Source: Nitrospira sp.
Lineage (GTDB): Bacteria; Nitrospirota; Nitrospiria; Nitrospirales; Nitrospiraceae
Reading direction: 5' to 3'
Assembly: GCA_005116895.1 (NCBI GenBank)
Contig: SWDO01000017.1
Coordinates: 45,605-109,604, forward strand
Length of the DNA stretch: 64,000 bases
The position numbers and the translations under genes are program-made. Shown here in pieces: positions 14,998 to 40,889 of the stretch (positions are counted from its first letter, which is position 1; each line of letters begins with the position of its first letter). The notes below the pieces were generated by a model that was given only the letters and a program-made list of their open reading frames with translations, did not search any database and was not told the DNA's origin.

Positions 14998-15699
14998 TTA
15001 TTCTGTCCGAAGTCGATAGCCAACTCCCAGTTCTGTCACAAGATAGCGGGGATGAGCGGGGTTTTTCTCCAGTTTGTTCCGCAACTGTCGCATGTAGACT
15101 CGTAGATAATGTCCTTCGTCTACATGAAGCGGCCCCCAGACCTCTTTTAGCAGCTGACGGTGAGTCAGCACTTTGCCGGCATACCGGATCAACGTTGTGA
15201 GGAGTTTATACTCGATCGGTGTAAGATGAATTTCCTTCCCTGAGACAAACACCTGCCGCCGTCCGAGATCCACCTTCAGATCGCCAAGATCACCCAGCGT
15301 AAACACCGAATCGCCGCCATCAGCAGGTCGGGACGTATGACGAAGCGCCGCTCGCATCCGTGCAAGGAGTTCGTTGACCCCGAACGGTTTTGTCACATAA
15401 TCGTCGGCACCGAGGTCGAGTGCCGCTACTTTGACCTGTTCCTGGTCTCGAGCCGACAGCACGATGATGGGGGTGGTGGTCCATTCCCGCACCTGCCGAA
15501 TGACCTCGCTCCCCTCTAGATCCGGCAAACCGAGATCCAGCAGAATAAGGTCAGGATTTCTTGCTTGAGCTTCGGCAAGGCCATCCCGCCCCGTCGTCGC
15601 CTCGTACAATCGAAAGCCATGGACAGGTAGTGTCGTCCGCAGGAAGCGGCGAATCTCCGGTTCATCTTCAATGAGGAGTATCGTGGCTTCCTGTGACAT
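14998..15699 (-). CDS. kdpE: response regulator KdpE (OmpR family)
   Basis: REC plus winged helix, downstream of kdpD. Confidence 0.9.
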   Translation of the reverse strand: MSQEATILLIEDEPEIRRFLRTTLPVHGFRLYEATTGRDGLAEAQARNPDLILLDLGLPDLEGSEVIRQVREWTTTPIIVLSARDQEQVKVAALDLGADDYVTKPFGVNELLARMRAALRHTSRPADGGDSVFTLGDLGDLKVDLGRRQVFVSGKEIHLTPIEYKLLTTLIRYAGKVLTHRQLLKEVWGPLHVDEGHYLRVYMRQLRNKLEKNPAHPRYLVTELGVGYRLRTE

Positions 15700-15717
15700 A
15701 TGGCAATACGGTCTTGA

Positions 15718-18435
15718 TCACTGCTCTTCGATGGAAAAGGATTGGCCGTGTTGAGTCTCCGCCTCCAGAGACGGCTGCTGATCCGGCAACGGAATCGAGA
15801 AGCGAAAGAGGGCGCCCCCACCGGAGCGATTCTCAGCCCAAATACGGCCGCCATGCGCTTCCACGATACCGCGACAAATCGTCAACCCGAGCCCAACCCC
15901 TCCCTCTCGCGCAAGACTACCGCGATAGAATTTATCAAAGATACGGGACTCATCCCCAACTGGAATACCCGGTCCTCTATCTGCGACCTCCACGATCACG
16001 TCGCGATCGCTCGCTGATGCGGACAGATCAATCGGGCCTCCCGAAGGCGCATACTTCACGGCATTCTCCACCAGGTTGATGACCACTTGTTCCAGCAGCA
16101 CTCCATCGACTAACACCAGCGGCAGATCGGCTGGAAACGCCGTGTTGACGGTATGCTCGCGCAACCGTCCCTCCAGTCTGGCCAAGGCTGCACCGACAAC
16201 CTCATCTAGAGAATGCCACTCTTTACTGAGCTGTATGGCTCCCGCTTCAAGACGCATCATATCGAGAAGGTTCTTCAGTAAACGATCAAGACGATCAGCC
16301 TCTCGATAAATGGACCGAGAGAGCTCGCGCCGAGCGGCGGGGTCGAGTACCCTCTGCTCTTCCGCCAAACTACTGGCAGCGCCGGTGATGGTAGCCAGCG
16401 GGGTCCTCAGGTCGTGAGACACCGAGCTGAGAATAGCATTCCGCATGCGCTCCGTTTCGGCGCGCACGTGGGCGTGCTGCGCCTCCTCCGACAGGCGCGT
16501 CCGCTCAATCGCCAGCGCCACCTGATTCACCAGAGATTCGAGCAAGTGCAGTTGCTCGGGGTCCAGCAAGAGTCCCGGGTCCTTCGGCCGGACTGCGACT
16601 ACCCCGATCGCGCCGGATGATCCGACCAAGGGCAAGTACAGAGCGCTGGCCCCCGGCAGCGTATCCGTCCCAAGTCCGGCTCGCTCACTGTGATCGAATG
16701 CCCATTGAGCCACACCCGCTTCCTTTGGGTCCAACTCAAAAAACAGGAGTTCCCCGCGTTGCAGTTGCACCCGCTTGTCCACATCCGCCAGGAAGATGGC
16801 AACTTGAGCATCAAACACCTCACGGAGATGCTTGGCCGCAAGTTGCGCCAGCAGGCCGGTTCCACGATGCATGGCGAGGTCGCGGCTCATGGCATAGAGC
16901 ACTCCCGTGCGTCTTTCTCGGTAACGGGCCAGCTCGGCTTGCTGGTGTAGACGCACGGCCAGATTGCCGATGACCAAGGCAACCACGAGCATGACGCCGA
17001 AGGTCAATAGGTATTGAATATCGGAGACGGCAAAGGAGAGGTAGGGCGGCACGAAGAAGAAATCGAAAGCCGCCACGCTCACAATCGAAGCCATCGCCGA
17101 CGGCCCACGCCCAAAACGAATCGCAATGACAATCACGGCAATGAGATACATCATGATCAAATTCGCCGCCGCGAAATAGGGGAACATCAGCCAAGCGACT
17201 GCCGTCGCTGTCAACACTCCTGCCAAGGCGTAGGCATATCCTGAGGCATCGTTGGTACTTCGGAGAGTGCGACGTATCAGCGGCTGCCCTTCGCCTGCCT
17301 CTCCCGTGATGACATAGATATCCATCTCTCCGCTTTGATGGACGAGGTCCGAGACAACCGACCCAAACACCCATTCCTTCCACCGAGACCTGACTGGTTT
17401 CCCGACAATAATTTTTGTGGCATTGCGGCTGCGTGCATAGCTCAAAATCTCTTGGGCGACGTTCTCGCCGGTGAGCGTGACGGTTTCGGCCCCTAACTGT
17501 TCTGCCAGTCTCAGTGTTTGTACCAGGCGATCTCGTTCGGTTTGCGGCAAGCCAAGATGCCGTGGAAGCTGCACATAGACCGCGATCCACTTGGCATGGA
17601 GATCCGCCGCCATCTGGCGGGCAGCCCTGATCAAGCGTGAGCCACGAGGTTTCATATTCACGCAGACCATGATAGTTTCCGCCGCCGGCCAGGTTCGGAC
17701 CACTGCGTGGTCGCGCCGGTAGACCTCCATCTGCTGATCGACCCGCTCGGCCGTGCGGCGCAACGCGAGTTCTCGAAGCGCGATGAGATTGCCTTTGGCA
17801 AAGAAATTTTGAATCGCATGTTGGATCTGTTCCGGGACATAGACCTTCCCGTCTTTGAGCCGCTGAAGAAGATCGTCAGGCGGGAGGTCGATAAGTTCGA
17901 CGTCATCTGCCCGTTCGAGCACGGAATCCGGGACGGTCTCACGCACCCGCACGCCGGTAATCTGCGTGACCACATCATTCAAACTTTCCAAGTGCTGCAC
18001 ATTCACGGTGGTATAGACCGTAATACCGGCCTTGAGTAATTCCTGAACATCCTGCCACCGCTTGGCATGACGCTGACCCGGGGCGTTGGTGTGTGCCAAT
18101 TCGTCGATGAGGATGATAGTGGGGTGTCGCGCGAGGGCCGCGTCGAGATCGAATTCTTGCAGCATTGCACCACGGTAGCCGACAACGCAGCGCGGGAGGA
18201 CCTCAAGTCCGTCCACCAACGCCTCGGTTTCAGCTCGGCCATGAGTCTCAACGACGCCGATAGCGACATCGACACCGTCACGCAGCTGCTCATGTGCCGC
18301 TTCGAGCATGGCGTACGTCTTCCCAACGCCGGGATTGGCGCCGAAGAAGATCTTGAGTTTGCCTTCGGCTTTGCGAGTTTCCTCCGCCTGCACACGTTTC
18401 AGCAGCGCATCCGGATCTGGTCGTGATTGGCTCAT
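15718..18435 (-). CDS. kdpD: osmosensitive K+ channel sensor histidine kinase KdpD
   Basis: KdpD N-terminal domain [23 protein letters not shown] domain, DUF4118, HisKA/HATPase. Confidence 0.96.
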
Positions 18436-30444: not shown

Positions 30445-30993
30445 ATGGCGGGAACCTCTACCTTACACACTCATCTTTGCAATGCCACACCTCCCTGGTC
30501 GGCGCTTCTCGTCGTCCCTCGAGGAACCTCAGCCTCGGCCCTGGTGAAAACACCGCCAGGCTTTGCCGTGCGTACCATCCAGGGAAAGAAATGCCGAACT
30601 CCATCGACTCTCTTCGGTGAGTTTGCACGAGCACTGGATTTCCCGGATTATTTCGGACACAACTGGGACGCATTGGAGGAGTGTCTGGCCGATTTCGACT
30701 GGCTTCCCGCTAAAGGGTACATCTTGCTCATTCACGATGCCGACGCTGTGCTTCCCGAGGATGAAGAAGAGTACGAAACGGTACTGGAAATCCTCAGCGA
30801 CGCTGGCGAAGCCTGGAGCAAGGGACAAACGGCTGAAGGTCGGCGCGCCCCATTCCATGTGTGTTTGGCGGTGACGGAACAGAACAAATCGAAACGGACA
30901 CACTGGCACTTGAAAGAGTTCTCCCCTACCGAGTCAACAACACCCAAGACGAAACCCAACCTCAAACGTGCGCCGAAGCGGTCTAAAAAGTAA
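30445..30993 (+). CDS. barstar family RNase inhibitor
   Basis: FGEFARALDFPDYFGHNWDALEECLADF barstar motif. Confidence 0.88.
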   Translation: MAGTSTLHTHLCNATPPWSALLVVPRGTSASALVKTPPGFAVRTIQGKKCRTPSTLFGEFARALDFPDYFGHNWDALEECLADFDWLPAKGYILLIHDADAVLPEDEEEYETVLEILSDAGEAWSKGQTAEGRRAPFHVCLAVTEQNKSKRTHWHLKEFSPTESTTPKTKPNLKRAPKRSKK

Positions 30994-34011: not shown

Positions 34012-34374
34012 ATGAAATTCATCATGCGCGACAAGAATATTTCATGTGTTGAAGTGACCAATATCTCCAAGCATGGACTTTGGCTCTGTACCAGAGACAA
34101 CGAGCTCTTTATTTTATTCAAAGAGTTTCCTCAGTTTCTAGATGCCTCTGTATCAAAGATCCTGAACGTCGAACAACCGAACCCCAACTTCCTGCATTGG
34201 CCAGACCTCGACATTAATCTCGCTGTCGAATCCGTCAGATACTTTCCACTCTTGTCACAAATATCGCGCCCAACAACACGCTCTAGTCGACAAGCGAAGA
34301 CGGAGCCTATCACCCAACTGAAAAGCGATCTGCCTTCAGGTCCCCTCAGAACGTCACCAAAGAACAACGCATAA
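34012..34374 (+). CDS. DUF2442 domain-containing protein
   Basis: [45 protein letters not shown]. Confidence 0.85.
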
Positions 34375-34424
34375 GCTCTCCAAGGATTTCGCACTTTCCT
34401 AATGCCATCTCTCATACAAAACCA

Positions 34425-34664
34425 ATGAAGGAGGCACCGCTCAAAGTACGGATTAACAAACCGGTGTGCTACCGCACGTCCCATCATACATTTGCGACCC
34501 ATCTGTTGAAAAACGGCTACGATATCCGCACGGTTCAGGAACTGTTGGGTCACACCGACGTGAGGACGACCATTATGGATACACAGGTCCTGAATCGAAG
34601 CGGCAAAGGGGAACGGGGTCCCGCAGATGCGCTGGGATCAGAGTTGAGCCCTTCGCAGCAATAA
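34425..34664 (+). pseudogene. integron integrase (IntI-type tyrosine recombinase) C-terminal remnant
   Basis: [51 protein letters not shown] matches the IntI C-terminus; the tyrosine expected in the 'TTMIYTHVLNR' motif reads Asp (GAT) and the box II LRH Arg is lost. Confidence 0.85.
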
Positions 34665-34831
34665 CGGGACTATGCCGATCTGTATCTCACGCCGATCAGG
34701 CGCAGAGGGAATGTTGACAAGTGATTGAGCGTACGCAAGAATCACAATCCTGTGTGCAGACTGCAGGTGCGTACTGTGCCGGTCAGTATACTCAATAGGT
34801 AGGTCAGCAACAAACGGGGGGAGAGATTACA

Positions 34832-35050
34832 ATGAAGGCGGAATTCACGGCGATCATAGAAGCCGCACCCACTGGCGGCTTTTGGGCGATCTGTCCGGAG
34901 GTGCCTGGCGCCAACGGACAGGGCGAGACGATAGAGGAAACCAAAACCAGCCTGCGTGAGGCCATTGTGTTGATCCTGGATGATCGCAGGACTGATATTC
35001 TCCGAGGGCTACCCGATGACGCCATCCAAGACACGGTGTTGATCGGATGA
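34832..35050 (+). CDS. hicB: HicB family antitoxin
   Basis: FTAIIEAAPTGGFWAICPEVPGANGQGETIEETKTSLREAI. Confidence 0.88.
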   Translation: MKAEFTAIIEAAPTGGFWAICPEVPGANGQGETIEETKTSLREAIVLILDDRRTDILRGLPDDAIQDTVLIG

Positions 35051-35226
35051 AACGACGAGAATTGGAGCGACGGTTGAGAGTCGCAGGGTGCTATCTCAAA
35101 CGGGAGGGAGCATCCCATTCGCTTTGGATTAATCCGAAGAATGGAGCGCTGGAAGCCGTCCCCAGGCACACCGATGTCAAGGAACCATTGGCAAAGAAGA
35201 TTTTGAAGAATCTCAATGCAGAATGA
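35047..35226 (+). CDS. hicA: HicA family toxin (59 aa, not in the supplied ORF track)
   Basis: Manual translation MKRRELERRLRVAGCYLKREGASHSLWINPKNGALEAVPRHTDVKEPLAKKILKNLNAE*; ATGA overlap with hicB. Confidence 0.85.
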   Translation: MKRRELERRLRVAGCYLKREGASHSLWINPKNGALEAVPRHTDVKEPLAKKILKNLNAE

Positions 35227-35269
35227 AGCCCCGCGCCCTTACAGGTTTTCCTGAACATTCAAGTAGCAC

Positions 35270-35692
35270 TTGCCTCCTCTCATGCTCGCCCTGGCACCGG
35301 ACATAGTGTCTGATCTGAATTGTGAACTGGAGTCTGGTCTTGCAATCCAACACCTCGCGGCGCCGGTCATGAGTCGGTGGGAGGATCGGAGAGATCGTAC
35401 GAAGAAAGCACGCACGCGAGTCACACCAGGCAGTGGAAACGTGTTTCTTGATTTTGGATTTCCTCCACACGAGGCAACCGTCATGCTGCTGCGCTGCGAG
35501 CTTGCGGAGGCACTAAGCAAGTGGATGACCCGCGAAGGATTGCCCCAGGCACAGGCGGCCAAGCACCTTGGCGTGGTTCAGTCTCGCATCTCTGAGATCG
35601 CGTTCAACAAGCTGGACGAGCTGTCCCTCGACTACCTGGTAGGCCTCTCCGCCAAAGCCGGCTTGACCGTTGCAGTCAAGTTTGCTGCGTAG
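35270..35692 (+). CDS. XRE/HTH antitoxin-like protein
   Basis: LAEALSKWMTREGLPQAQAAKHLGVVQSRISEI HTH; start may lie further downstream. Confidence 0.7.
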   Translation: MPPLMLALAPDIVSDLNCELESGLAIQHLAAPVMSRWEDRRDRTKKARTRVTPGSGNVFLDFGFPPHEATVMLLRCELAEALSKWMTREGLPQAQAAKHLGVVQSRISEIAFNKLDELSLDYLVGLSAKAGLTVAVKFAA

Positions 35693-35941
35693 CTGAATAC
35701 TGCGCTTCAAATCCCGACGGCGCAGCAGCTTGATCCATATCGTGCCGCGAGACCGCAGTCATAGAGACTGAGGCTCTAGCAGCATTCATATTCTACTCAG
35801 GTGACAGCTGGCCTCTCATCCGAATCAGTTTCGTATTGGCAACGGGCCTCCGTCAACATGGTATTCACGCTCCTTCCCGCTTGTCGAGCTTGACCTACTC
35901 AATTGACCCAACCGATTCGGCAACTCTACCCAGCGCATCGA

Positions 35942-35983
35942 CTGCATCTAATCTGATCCACAGTGGAATCCATTTAGATACAG
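35942..35983. promoter_or_regulatory. 42-nt palindrome copy 1 (candidate enhancer-binding-protein UAS)
   Basis: CTGCATCTAATCTGATCCACAGTGGAATCCATTTAGATACAG. Confidence 0.7.
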
Positions 35984-36055
35984 GCAAAGGCTGTCTAACT
36001 TCGAAACACATCACCGCGAACATGGAAATACCAGACTTTTTACTTGAGATGCATG

Positions 36056-36071
36056 TGGCACCTCCCTTGCT
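36056..36071 (+). promoter_or_regulatory. sigma-54 (-24/-12) promoter P1
   Basis: TGGCAC-N5-TTGCT, GG-N10-GC spacing; 74 nt downstream of palindrome copy 1. Confidence 0.75.
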
Positions 36072-36165
36072 TTATCTGGAGACAAGCAAGTTGTGAACGA
36101 AGGCTGGGAATGTGCGAGGTGTCTGCATCGTGCAGGTTAACTTTACCAACCATAAGGAGGACGTG

Positions 36166-36402
36166 ATGGATGGACCAATTGTGAACCCAGATCTGCTTGT
36201 TCCGGAAGCCTTAAAGTGGCGGGTCCCTATCAACTGGGATCCGGTGCCATGGTGGTTTTTTGAACGAATGAAGCTACCTAATGAAGCTCTAACTCAACTT
36301 GCGTTGATTCAACTTGAGAATCAGCGAACGATCATGGAGCAAAACATGAAAGCGCTTGAGCAGTCAATGGAAATGGTCAAGAAGTTTGGCGGCAAGCAAT
36401 AG
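36166..36402 (+). CDS. small (78 aa) conserved-looking peptide, possible radical SAM substrate
   Basis: strong RBS AAGGAGG; MDGPIVNPDLLVPEALKWRVPINWDPVPWWFFERMKLPNEALTQLALIQLENQRTIMEQNMKALEQSMEMVKKFGGKQ. Confidence 0.65.
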   Translation: MDGPIVNPDLLVPEALKWRVPINWDPVPWWFFERMKLPNEALTQLALIQLENQRTIMEQNMKALEQSMEMVKKFGGKQ

Positions 36403-36535
36403 CGGAAGACTTCCCGACTGGAGGGAGTGGACGTTGCTCCTGGCCTTCAGCCACTCCCTGCCAGGGAACATGGGGAGACCTATGCCGCGGTCTAATCTCA
36501 AGGCGCTTCTGAAAAGGTGTTGTAGGAGGGGGATC

Positions 36536-38191
36536 ATGAAGGAACTCAACGTACTCAATGAAACCGTAGTTGCAACCGATCTGGAGCCCCTTGCGACGCA
36601 AGACATGAGCAAGCCGGTCGTGCTTATCGGTTTTCAACGTCAAGGCAACTTGGGGATCGGATATCTGGCTGCGACGCTGATACGACGGGGCCACTCGGTA
36701 AGAATTCTCGATTTCGAAGAGTCGCCAGAAACAATTTTGAAGGTCATTCAAGAGGATTCACCCATTATTGTTGGGTTCTCGCTGATTTTCCAATTCTACC
36801 TACCACGGTTTCGTGCTTTGATGCAGTATCTCCGCGATAATGGCATCTCCTCCCACTTTACAATCGGGGGGCACTTTCCAAGTTTAAGTCATGAGCGTAC
36901 GCTCGAGTTAATTCCTGAAGTAGACAGCGTTGTCAGATTCGAAGGTGAATTAACACTGCTGGAGCTGGTGGAAGCGCTGATTCATGAACGAGAGTGGCGC
37001 ACGATCCATGGCATCGCATATCGCCAGGGGAGGAGTGTCGTTGGGAATCCCCTCCGACGCCTCGTGGAAGATCTGGATACCCTGCCCTTTCCGCTCAGAC
37101 AATTCGAGCCCACCACGGTCATGGGACAACGCACAATGCCGATACTCGCTTCGCGCGGATGTTCTCGCACATGCTCTTTTTGCTCTATTCACATGTTTTA
37201 CCGTGCAGCCCCGGGGCGAGTAGTCCGCATTCGAAAGGTGACCGAGGTGGTGCGAGAAATGAAAGAGTTGCATGACGAATATGGCATCACAATCTTCCTA
37301 TTCCAGGACGATGACTTCCCACTGTATGGTCCGTCATGGCGCCGGTGGGCACTCAGTCTGGTCGAGGAGCTCCAGCGTCAGCAGCTTATTGGGAAGATCA
37401 TCTGGAAAATTAGCTGCCGTGCCGATGTGGTGGAGCCGGATTTATTCGCAACGCTCCGTGACGCCGGGCTGTATCTTGTGTATATGGGCCTCGAGTCTGG
37501 GACGGAAGACGGACTGGATGTCCTGAACAAGGAAATCACTGTGGAGCAAAATCTTCGGGCCATTGAGATACTGAAGACTCTGGGACTCATGTGGGAGTTC
37601 GGTTTCATGCTATTCGACCCATCTAGCACATTCGAATCTATCGCGGAGAATGTGCGCTTCTTACGGCAAATAGCGGAGGATGGGGATGTGGCCGCCGTCT
37701 TCTGCAAAATGCTGCCTTACGATGGCACACCCATTAAAGAGACGCTCATGGCGCAGGGGCGATTTAACGGGGATGTCTGTAACCCAGATTATGACTTCAT
37801 CGATCAACGCATTGCAGTTTGCTATGAGACCATTGGAAAAACCGTAGGTGAGTGGGTTCGAGGAGCCGATTGCATGGCCTCGCTAATTAATCACGCCTGG
37901 CACGAGGTGTTTGTAATGGAACGGCTATTTCAGTCACACGACGCCATCGACTCTTACAAAGCGTCTTTGACCACACTCACCAAATTCAGCAACAACATTC
38001 TATTTACCGCGGTGGAAGAAATCTGCACATCCATCCAGAGGAACGCAGGAACATATTCTGCGTATGAGGAGTTGGGGCCTATTCGCGAGCAGATAGTGTC
38101 AAACCTGATTCAACGACGCAATCAGTTTGTCGCCGACAACCAGTCCTGGCTGTTGAAAGGAGTGTCGAAGCATATCCTGGTTGGGGCATAG
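36536..38191 (+). CDS. B12-binding domain radical SAM protein
   Basis: N-terminal cobalamin-binding-like Rossmann domain, GCSRTCSFCS CxxxCxxC motif, GLESGTEDGLDVLNK; start at MKELNVLNET. Confidence 0.9.
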   Translation: MKELNVLNETVVATDLEPLATQDMSKPVVLIGFQRQGNLGIGYLAATLIRRGHSVRILDFEESPETILKVIQEDSPIIVGFSLIFQFYLPRFRALMQYLRDNGISSHFTIGGHFPSLSHERTLELIPEVDSVVRFEGELTLLELVEALIHEREWRTIHGIAYRQGRSVVGNPLRRLVEDLDTLPFPLRQFEPTTVMGQRTMPILASRGCSRTCSFCSIHMFYRAAPGRVVRIRKVTEVVREMKELHDEYGITIFLFQDDDFPLYGPSWRRWALSLVEELQRQQLIGKIIWKISCRADVVEPDLFATLRDAGLYLVYMGLESGTEDGLDVLNKEITVEQNLRAIEILKTLGLMWEFGFMLFDPSSTFESIAENVRFLRQIAEDGDVAAVFCKMLPYDGTPIKETLMAQGRFNGDVCNPDYDFIDQRIAVCYETIGKTVGEWVRGADCMASLINHAWHEVFVMERLFQSHDAIDSYKASLTTLTKFSNNILFTAVEEICTSIQRNAGTYSAYEELGPIREQIVSNLIQRRNQFVADNQSWLLKGVSKHILVGA

Positions 38192-38241
38192 TACCAGGTG
38201 TCATAGACGCTGCGTGTACCCGCGCCAACACATGAGTGCGC

Positions 38242-38285
38242 ATTCCGCTGAATCCGGCCGCCGATTCCGAGCGAATCCGGCCACC
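38242..38285. repeat. 22-bp tandem repeat at an IS21-type end
   Basis: ATTCCGCTGAATCCGGCCGCCG / ATTCCGAGCGAATCCGGCCACC next to the istB fragment. Confidence 0.5.
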
Positions 38286-38310
38286 CCTCGGAGCCTCGCG
38301 ACGCAGGGCC

Positions 38311-38685
38311 TCAGTTCTCTGTCTGAAGTGGCCGACTTCCGTCCGATTTGGCTAACCGTTTGCGCATCGATTCTCCTTTCAGCGTGATCTTATAGGCATT
38401 GTGTACGAGCCGGTCAAGAATGGCATCGGCGAGCGTTGGCTCCCCGATCGCCGCATGCCAGTGATCGATCGGGAGTTGACTGGCCACCAAGGTGGCCCGA
38501 CGCCCGTGGCGATCATCGAGGAGTTCCAAGAGATCGCGGCGGTGCTCGTCGGTCAAGGACGCGAGCCCCCAGTCATCTAGGACCACGAGGTCCGTCTTGG
38601 CGAGATTCCGGAGCAGACGCCCATAGCGGCCATCGCCTTTGGCGACCGCGAGCTCCCGGAAGAACCGCGGCAGTCGCAGATACAA
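38311..38685 (-). pseudogene. IS21 family helper ATPase IstB, N-terminally truncated
   Basis: LAKTDLVVLDDWGLASLTDEHRRDLLELLDDRHGRRATLVASQLPIDHWHAAIGEPTLADAILDRLVHNAYKITLKGESMRK; Walker A region and istA absent. Confidence 0.9.
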
Positions 38686-38796: not shown

Positions 38797-39231
38797 ATGA
38801 GTAAGGGGAAAGTTTACCAAGGCAGCTGTTTTTGCGGCGCGGTGCGATTCACGGTCAGCGGTGAGCCGGCCGCCATGGGCTATTGCCATTGCGAGTCCTG
38901 CCGAATCTGGTCGGCTGCGCCGGTCAACGCCTTCACGTTGTGGAAACCCAACGCGGTGCAGATCATACAGGGAGCCGAGAACATCCGCACATACAGCAAG
39001 ACGCCGCTGAGTTTTCGCAAATGGTGTAAGACCTGTGGAGGCCATGTCTTTACTGAGCATCCTACGTGGGGGGTCACCGACGTGTATGCGGCAGTCATTC
39101 CGGACTTCCCCTACCAGGCCGCCATCCATGTGAACTATGAGGAGACGAAGCTGCGCATACAGGACGGGCTGCCGAAAATGAGGGACCTGCCACAAGAAAT
39201 GGGAGGCTCAGGCGTCAGCGTCCCCGAATGA
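38797..39231 (+). CDS. GFA family protein (Mss4/CENP-V-like zinc fold)
   Basis: GSCFCGAVRFTVSGEPAAMGYCHCESCR...KWCKTCGGHVF. Confidence 0.92.
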   Translation: MSKGKVYQGSCFCGAVRFTVSGEPAAMGYCHCESCRIWSAAPVNAFTLWKPNAVQIIQGAENIRTYSKTPLSFRKWCKTCGGHVFTEHPTWGVTDVYAAVIPDFPYQAAIHVNYEETKLRIQDGLPKMRDLPQEMGGSGVSVPE

Positions 39232-39552
39232 AGCTGCCAGGATTTCAAACGATTGGAATCGAAAAAAGTCTGCGGATATAAAAATGTACTGGGAGCCTTC
39301 TTTGAAGTCTGGAGCACTTCCGTGAGCTAGGGCGCAAGAAACACGAGGACAATCTGATTCAAGCCAACCCCAGCTAAGGCTGACATTCCGAGAGGACACG
39401 ACTGCCGAAGTGATTCAGGAGGCTTTCCTCATAGGAAGCCGCTGGCTCCATCGTGGCTTCAAGAACTACCCTGTCTCTATAGAACCGAGCCGACCACTCC
39501 CGTCTGTTCAATCACTCACGCCATTCCTTCAGCTTGATCTTCGCAACTTCTA

Positions 39553-39594
39553 CTGTATCTAATCCGATCCACCGTGGAATCCATTTAGATACAG
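39553..39594. promoter_or_regulatory. 42-nt palindrome copy 2
   Basis: CTGTATCTAATCCGATCCACCGTGGAATCCATTTAGATACAG. Confidence 0.75.
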
Positions 39595-39666
39595 ACACAA
39601 GCCGTCTAATTTCGAAACACCTCGCCGAGGCCGTTGCAATACTAGGCTTTTTGCTTAAGCTGCACA

Positions 39667-39683
39667 TGGCGCAAGAAATGCTT
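39667..39683 (+). promoter_or_regulatory. sigma-54-type promoter P2
   Basis: TGGCGCAAGAAATGCTT, GG-N10-GC; 74 nt downstream of palindrome copy 2. Confidence 0.65.
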
Positions 39684-39866
39684 TAGCCATCCAATACAAA
39701 GTAGGTTCTCACGATGGCATCTGGCATGGATACCGACTTACGTGGCGGATATCCACCTGAACATTCTCAGAGGTTTCAGACTATACACGCTCATCTGTCC
39801 AGTATGGACAACGAAACGAGATCATTTCTACATCAACCCTGCCCGACACAACGACGGAGGTAACGG

Positions 39867-40889
39867 ATGCCATTAAAAAAGTACGGAGTACTCAAAGGCA
39901 AAGCCATTGGGGGCAAGCGAGAAACCGAGGCGAGTTCTCCCCATTTCCAGATTCATATGACAGCGGGTGACGTCCAGTACCGGATTGCGGTGAATGTGAA
40001 ATCCCAACTCAGCCCGTCAGAGCTGCTGTTTTTGGTCAACGACGATTTTCAGCACTCGATCACGGCCTCGCTGCCGGGGTTGCCTGTTGGATTCACACCG
40101 TTGCGGAGTCAGCCAGGAGGGCAGGCACTCGATTTTATTCGCGGCAATCTGTTCAATCGCCTCGACATGCGCCTCCTGCCTCCGAATCTACCTGGCCCCA
40201 ACAACGACTTGAGTGACCAGATTGAACACTATGTGGCTCGTGCGATTGCTGAACCGGATGCGTTGATCTATGCGTTTGGGGAGCGCTGGGGACCTGAGGA
40301 AGGTGTGCCCGACAAAATATTTGGCTTCACCCCAGGCAACGGTATTCACGACATTCACATGAATCAGGGGAATACTCCACGTTTTAAGAGTGACGACGGC
40401 GTTTGGCAGGATGGAGGCTTGCTGTTTGCCTTTCCAAGTTCCCGTCAATGGGTCGGGGTCTTCCTGGCGTTTCAATCCCAAGCCTGGCACACGGATGATC
40501 GCACCGGGCACGCCAGCCCCGATGTGCCGAACCCTGGCCCGGGACCGGAACCGAGTCCAACCGAGCCCGATCATCTCGTCCAGATCGTCGGCGCACTAGT
40601 GAATCCAATCGGTCCAGCGCCGGAACAGGAAACGGTCACGTTACTCAATGCGTCGCCGGAATCGATTGATCTGACGGGATGGAAGATTGCCGATCGGCTC
40701 AAGAAGACCCACACCCTTTCCGGTGTGATCAATGCTGGCGCCACGCTCGTAGTGATATTGCCCCAGGACGTTCAATTGGGAAACAAGGGTGGGATCATTA
40801 CCTTGCTGAACGATAAAGGTTTGAAGGTCGACGGCGTCTCGTATACCGCCCAGCAGGCGAAAAAGGAAGGATGGACGATTGTGTTCTAG
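39867..40889 (+). CDS. DUF2278 family protein with C-terminal lamin-tail domain
   Basis: YGVLKGKAIGGKRE..SPHFQIHM (DUF2278); NPIGPAPEQETVTLLNASPESIDLTGWKIAD (LTD). Confidence 0.82.
   Translation: MPLKKYGVLKGKAIGGKRETEASSPHFQIHMTAGDVQYRIAVNVKSQLSPSELLFLVNDDFQHSITASLPGLPVGFTPLRSQPGGQALDFIRGNLFNRLDMRLLPPNLPGPNNDLSDQIEHYVARAIAEPDALIYAFGERWGPEEGVPDKIFGFTPGNGIHDIHMNQGNTPRFKSDDGVWQDGGLLFAFPSSRQWVGVFLAFQSQAWHTDDRTGHASPDVPNPGPGPEPSPTEPDHLVQIVGALVNPIGPAPEQETVTLLNASPESIDLTGWKIADRLKKTHTLSGVINAGATLVVILPQDVQLGNKGGIITLLNDKGLKVDGVSYTAQQAKKEGWTIVF

Follow-up and report, generated by a model that had tools for sequence, protein, structure and literature searches.

The window analysed here is a stretch of 64,000 nt from Nitrospira sp. 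Its plus strand carries a small ORF of 78 aa (36166-36402; ATG at 36166, stop at 36400-36402), which is followed by an intact gene for a cobalamin-binding (class B-type) radical SAM enzyme of 551 aa (36536-38191). A strong Shine-Dalgarno sequence, AAGGAGG, stands ahead of the small ORF on the same strand (36154-36160), as expected from the preliminary description of a 78-aa ORF with a good ribosome binding site; comparable sites precede the small gene in most relatives. The encoded protein is a candidate dedicated peptide substrate of the enzyme. It contains the motif W24-D25-P26-V27-P28-W29-W30 (36235-36255, plus strand), in which Asp25-Pro26 is invariant across 19 sequences and is the proposed site of modification.

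A sigma-54-like -24/-12 site, TGGCACCTCCCTTGC, lies on the plus strand (36056-36070), with 95 nt between it and the start codon of the small ORF. It is an exact TGGCAC-N5-TTGC sequence and the sole zero-mismatch sigma-54 match in the 64 kb; no sigma-70-like site was found nearby on the plus strand. The two genes had been described as lying under a sigma-54 promoter. The exact site is indeed present in the window, but it is not conserved in relatives: the best sigma-54 match at two 75%-identical Nitrospira loci scores 8/10, compared with 10/10 in the window. Sigma-54 control was thus rejected as a conserved feature, and the promoter claim rests on one sequence because the site is absent before the homologous genes.

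Remnants of mobile and addiction-type elements surround the two genes (34012-38685). These include a DUF2442 protein, a C-terminal fragment of a phage-type integrase upstream (34425-34664, plus strand; PF00589), a weak HicB-like match, an HTH_37 protein, and a fragment of IS21 IstB downstream (38311-38685, minus strand; PF01695, profile positions 125-234 of 238). Further downstream (38797-40889) are genes for a GFA-family protein and a protein with DUF2278 and lamin-tail domains; close homologs of both occur near the related gene pair of Nitrospira G031 (locus L038), on the opposite side of that pair. An ORF of 182 aa at 30445-30993 (YFGHNWDALEECLADFDWL) resembles barstar-type inhibitors by eye.

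Pairing and distribution of the two genes

With the enzyme as sole query, GTDB genomes yielded 10 relatives (52-75% identity) from Nitrospira, Acidobacteriaceae, Hyphomicrobiales, Acetobacteraceae, Reyranella and Caulobacteraceae, and one further Nitrospira relative was found beyond these. All of these first 11 have a homologous ORF of 66-78 aa immediately 5' of the enzyme gene. A search of 349 Terriglobia genomes with an enzyme profile added seven new members, and the small ORF is present in 7/7 (E-values of 4e-11 to 6e-19 against the small-protein profile); these seven played no part in building the small-protein profile. With the window counted, a small gene of 64-78 aa lies directly upstream of the enzyme gene in 19 of the 19 close members, which were located by enzyme sequence alone and belong to the Nitrospirota, Acidobacteriota and Alphaproteobacteria.

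The association also holds in reverse. When 309 Terriglobia genomes were searched with the small protein, it was present in seven, all of them enzyme-bearing. Among Nitrospira relatives and the order of Reyranella, the small gene was found only where the enzyme gene was known to adjoin it; a lone small-protein match in G033 lies inside a long unrelated ORF and was dismissed as chance. The pairing is one-to-one and obligate as far as seen. The preliminary idea of a linked pair would have failed if the peptide were not conserved beside homologous enzymes; co-occurrence is complete in the 19 loci and reciprocal in the Terriglobia. Since the small gene is always directly 5' of the enzyme gene, and reciprocally so, we read its product as a probable dedicated substrate.

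Comparison of up to 10 kb, as far as the contigs reach, revealed no third gene common to the loci, and no protease, transporter/exporter or RRE gene is shared over that distance. The unit is therefore a two-gene cassette. The same facts (obligate one-to-one pairing with no third gene) would also suit a dedicated partner subunit or adaptor, for instance a docking protein or membrane anchor through which the enzyme would reach its substrate, be it a lipid, a protein or a small molecule. We consider this alternative less likely, on the evidence of the hairpins and distant relatives given below.

The system is rare and patchy: the close form was seen in 2 of the 79 genomes of Nitrospira and in 8 of the 349 of Terriglobia. 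In the enzyme tree, Nitrospira, acidobacterial and alphaproteobacterial members fall into one supported group (18 rows, 98/98). The acidobacterial L068 enzyme, the most divergent close enzyme, is outside this group, and it too is accompanied by the small gene. Patchiness together with the mobile remnants suggests that the cassette has spread horizontally. A viral origin was rejected, as no relative was found in viral contigs; so was a plasmid origin, the one plasmid match being 33% identical and lacking a related small gene.

The small protein and the intergenic hairpins

The small gene is under purifying selection (dN/dS of 0.06-0.48 in five ortholog pairs, those for which the ratio was computable). 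This, with its conservation in three phyla, makes it more than a chance ORF. Its location directly 5' of the enzyme gene and the hairpins in the gap could be read as attenuation, which would make it a translated leader, a regulatory ORF or an unrelated gene standing before the enzyme gene by chance. Such a reading is hardly credible: besides the dN/dS values, the protein is conserved across three phyla with invariant residues, the protein is retained even as the hairpins change in sequence, and Rfam gave no match for a known RNA element.

Strong hairpins of differing sequence occur between the two genes in most relatives. In the window, the gap spans 133 nt (36403-36535, plus strand) and contains the hairpin AGGGAGTGG...CCACTCCCT at 36422-36459. 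The summed folding z over 19 gaps is -6.9, compared with -1.7 for same-length stretches 5' of the small gene; the L018 enzyme start was misplaced in this calculation, and leaving L018 out gives about -6.6 by hand. At 1386-1430 of L065, a textbook rho-independent terminator with a T-tract (GCCGGTGCC...GGCACCGGCTTTTTTT) stands between the small gene and the enzyme gene. In bacteriocin and RiPP operons, leaky terminators or processing hairpins keep precursor message above enzyme message. The hairpins and terminator suggest unequal expression and therefore fit a substrate better than a subunit needed at 1:1.

Alignment of the 19 small proteins shows that Met1, Asp25 and Pro26 are the only invariant positions, followed in conservation by Leu16, [FWY]18, Leu37 and the leucines of a helix. 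Asp25-Pro26 is kept in this diverse set though identity to the window protein drops to 19%, and the sequence around it varies (WDPVPWW, WDPIGPPW, WDPIDMEI, PDPGPPW, GDPIAPW). Conservation of the whole WDPVPWWF region had been proposed as a check; within Nitrospira it holds, with FKWRVPINWDPVPWWFFER nearly identical in the window and L012 proteins, but across phyla Asp-Pro alone is fixed. A conserved Lx[FWY] segment lies N-terminal to the dipeptide and a C-terminal helix follows it. These three parts can be distinguished in the alignment and in the fused prediction described below, which narrows the search for a putative leader/core boundary, one that the earlier description could not define. 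The pattern differs from that of a classic conserved leader with a hypervariable core, in that conservation extends to the Asp-Pro block itself and the C-terminal helix appears to be structural.

AlphaFold predicts a helix at residues 39-75 of the window protein folded alone (pLDDT 81-88), and its N-terminal half is loose. In L015 the small gene and the enzyme gene share a reading frame by chance, and the two were predicted as one fused chain by reading through the stops. There, the pre-motif segment ALPEVLQFNP reaches a pLDDT of up to 76, the motif about 47 and the helix 50-67. This prediction hints that the Lx[FWY] segment may dock on the enzyme. The long conserved helix, with an aromatic-rich segment and an amphipathic character that would suit anchoring, also accords with a partner subunit, as does the lack of a classic hypervariable core.

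The small protein has no match in Pfam, NCBIfam or PADLOC, which bears out the preliminary view that it lies outside recognised precursor families. Searches for relatives among solved structures found none, either by fold or by sequence; the sole sequence match is a helix peptide at chance level.

The radical SAM enzyme and its nearest known systems

The downstream gene had been taken for a cobalamin-binding radical SAM protein, and both diagnostic Pfam domains are present: B12-binding (PF02310, 67 bits) and Radical_SAM (PF04055, 70 bits). The CxxxCxxC motif occurs as CSRTCSFC at residues 209-216. The protein has no DxHxxG cobalamin motif and no RRE-like (PqqD) match in Pfam. Together with a fold match to OxsB and TsrM, the two domains and the cysteine motif place it among the cobalamin-dependent (class B-type) radical SAM enzymes.

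Among the nearest folds OxsB ranks first, and TsrM, MgmA, TokK, AprD4 and CysS also belong to them. The substrate cannot be read from the fold alone, because these folds mix small-molecule and protein enzymes. The proximity of the small-molecule enzymes OxsB and AprD4, and a loose resemblance, at profile level, to HpnR, which is a lipid enzyme, are further points in favour of a partner subunit. Scores against NCBIfam families are well below the curated cut-offs: BchE, the top profile match, gives 126 bits (cut-off 481), ApyD 113 (750), HpnR 107 (650), PhpK 94 (600), MgmA (TIGR04014) 86 (360) and TIGR03975 59 (282). Assignment to a named small-molecule methyltransferase was therefore rejected, as every cut-off is missed widely. 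A firm place in a known clade of that kind would have counted against the preliminary interpretation; the enzyme falls below every curated B12-radical SAM family cut-off.

The closest described system is that of the aminopyruvatides, in which a precursor, ApyA, is served by the B12-radical SAM enzyme ApyD (NF050148), which C-methylates the unactivated C-beta of tyrosine (PMC10635010). It shares with the window locus a small precursor gene and a cobalamin-dependent radical SAM enzyme, and ApyD is one of the highest-scoring NCBIfam families for the window enzyme, though the score is far below its cut-off. Genes for the RRE, MNIO, P450 and methyltransferase of the aminopyruvatide system are all absent from the window locus, and the small protein there is unrelated in sequence. 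The peptide C-methyltransferases of TIGR03975 (rSAM_ocin_1) belong to the same superfamily, and a member lies directly beside a second-tier Nitrospira enzyme (see below), but the window enzyme itself is not a member by score. OxsB, BchE, HpnR, PhpK and AprD4 share the B12-binding and radical SAM architecture; the window enzyme is far under the cut-offs of the BchE, HpnR and PhpK families. We know of no small protein of this kind accompanying any of these five.

MgmA, which C-methylates a glutamine of methyl-coenzyme M reductase, shows that a B12-radical SAM enzyme of near fold can act on a protein side chain, though its substrate is different. It prompts the alternative that the target of the window enzyme is the helix or some other residue and that the small protein is a modified structural or carrier protein of the cell, matured as McrA is by glutamine methylation and not a RiPP. 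In its favour, MgmA ranks with the nearest folds (9ccb, TM 0.71 by target length), the motif is conserved along with the helix, and the locus has no protease or exporter. We nevertheless find this improbable: a dedicated protein of 64-78 aa, detected nowhere but with the enzyme, looks made to be modified, and nothing links it to a larger machine.

The papers found on B12-radical SAM enzymes and RiPPs concern other systems. Neither the putative precursor family nor its enzyme clade has a counterpart in the libraries searched; the combination of a small peptide with a B12-radical SAM enzyme is of a kind already known.

Second-tier relatives and the proposed modification

More distant, second-tier enzymes show 41-44% identity and score about 430-470 bits, compared with about 950-990 for the close form (733 for L068). 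The proteins encoded ahead of them likewise combine an Asp-Pro motif with a helix; they have 74 aa (L069), about 104 aa (L036), 171-184 aa (L005) and 331 aa (seven Nitrospira). The L005 protein has five copies of DPxP, four as DPxP[WFY], a result matched by 0 of 20,000 shuffles. Single copies are weaker (p = 0.02 in L036 and 0.14 in the 331-aa protein), and the best profile E-value between first- and second-tier small proteins is 0.47, so that the likeness is at the level of the motif. The 331-aa protein has no match in Pfam or NCBIfam. At 3340-11542 of L048 (Nitrospira), genes for an entire type I secretion system (HlyB, HlyD, TolC-like) are divergent from the pair formed by the 331-aa protein and a second-tier enzyme. 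Because the second-tier upstream protein varies so drastically in size and sequence, and in one case repeats the Asp-Pro motif, a substrate fits better than a subunit.

In the L005 locus, from another Nitrospira, the second-tier enzyme is followed by two RiPP-maturation genes, one for a TIGR03975 C-methyltransferase (715 bits, cut-off 282) and one for a PatA/G maturation protease (724 bits, cut-off 421); a sigma-54 activator is encoded upstream. Region 6962-15600 of L047 (Nitrospira G012) encodes a sigma-54 activator, a DPxP[WFY]-repeat protein, a second-tier enzyme, a TIGR03975 C-methyltransferase and a PatA/G protease, and is probably a RiPP cluster. It is followed at 15651-17130 by three small ORFs with a common M[RK][LI]PxQ[SA]AG N-terminus (MRLPMQSAGINP, MKLPNQSAGANR, MRIPPQAAGVRR), which resemble a family of precursors belonging to the TIGR03975/PatA-G cluster. 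The neighbours of the L005 enzyme favour the RiPP reading; they are supportive but not decisive, because the neighbouring cluster seems to own candidate precursors and may be a pathway separate from that of the second-tier enzyme.

With moderate confidence, then, we take the small protein to be the dedicated peptide substrate of the enzyme in a stand-alone, horizontally spread, RiPP-like cassette. The preliminary description had suggested a RiPP-like system; that the peptide belongs with the enzyme is borne out by its constant and reciprocal pairing, but no RRE, protease or transporter gene is common to the loci, and the RiPP character is inferred. Judged by sequence, the consistent pairing of a putative encoded precursor with a modifying enzyme is what would be expected of a RiPP (19/19; reciprocal in 309 Terriglobia genomes). 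A dedicated protease, exporter or RRE gene nearby, which is usual and not obligatory, was found neither in the loci (up to 10 kb) nor, as RRE, in the Pfam search of the enzyme. Also counted against a substrate are the absence of a PqqD match in the enzyme and of a hypervariable core, the weak predicted dock (motif pLDDT about 47), and the presence of OxsB and AprD4 among the nearest folds.

If the small protein is the substrate, both genes would be co-transcribed, and the intergenic hairpin would keep the small-gene message in excess. The Lx[FWY] segment ahead of the motif may then dock on the enzyme, as one structure prediction hints, and the enzyme, by means of SAM, cobalamin and its 4Fe-4S cluster, would change a C-H bond in the Asp-Pro motif, the likeliest site of modification. 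To judge from the enzyme class, C-methylation would be the most likely chemistry. The C-terminal helix would serve as a follower or carrier, either trimmed by a general protease or retained in the modified small protein. A broader proposal, tentative and to which we give slightly less than even weight, is that the Asp-Pro ('DP') precursors, together with a B12-radical SAM clade of their own, make up a new RiPP class: a minimal two-gene cassette with no protease, exporter or RRE, modified on or beside Asp-Pro, with distant relatives acting on DPxP[WFY]-repeat and larger proteins.

B12-radical SAM enzymes carry out difficult reactions at unactivated carbons, and known substrates cover only a minority of the superfamily. 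In this case the genome itself probably supplies the substrate: a protein of 64-78 aa with one invariant dipeptide, encoded beside the enzyme gene in bacteria of three phyla from soil and water, both culturable and unculturable. If confirmed, it would represent a new precursor family, one likely overlooked by current RiPP mining for want of an exporter, protease or RRE, and the modification at Asp-Pro might also be new.
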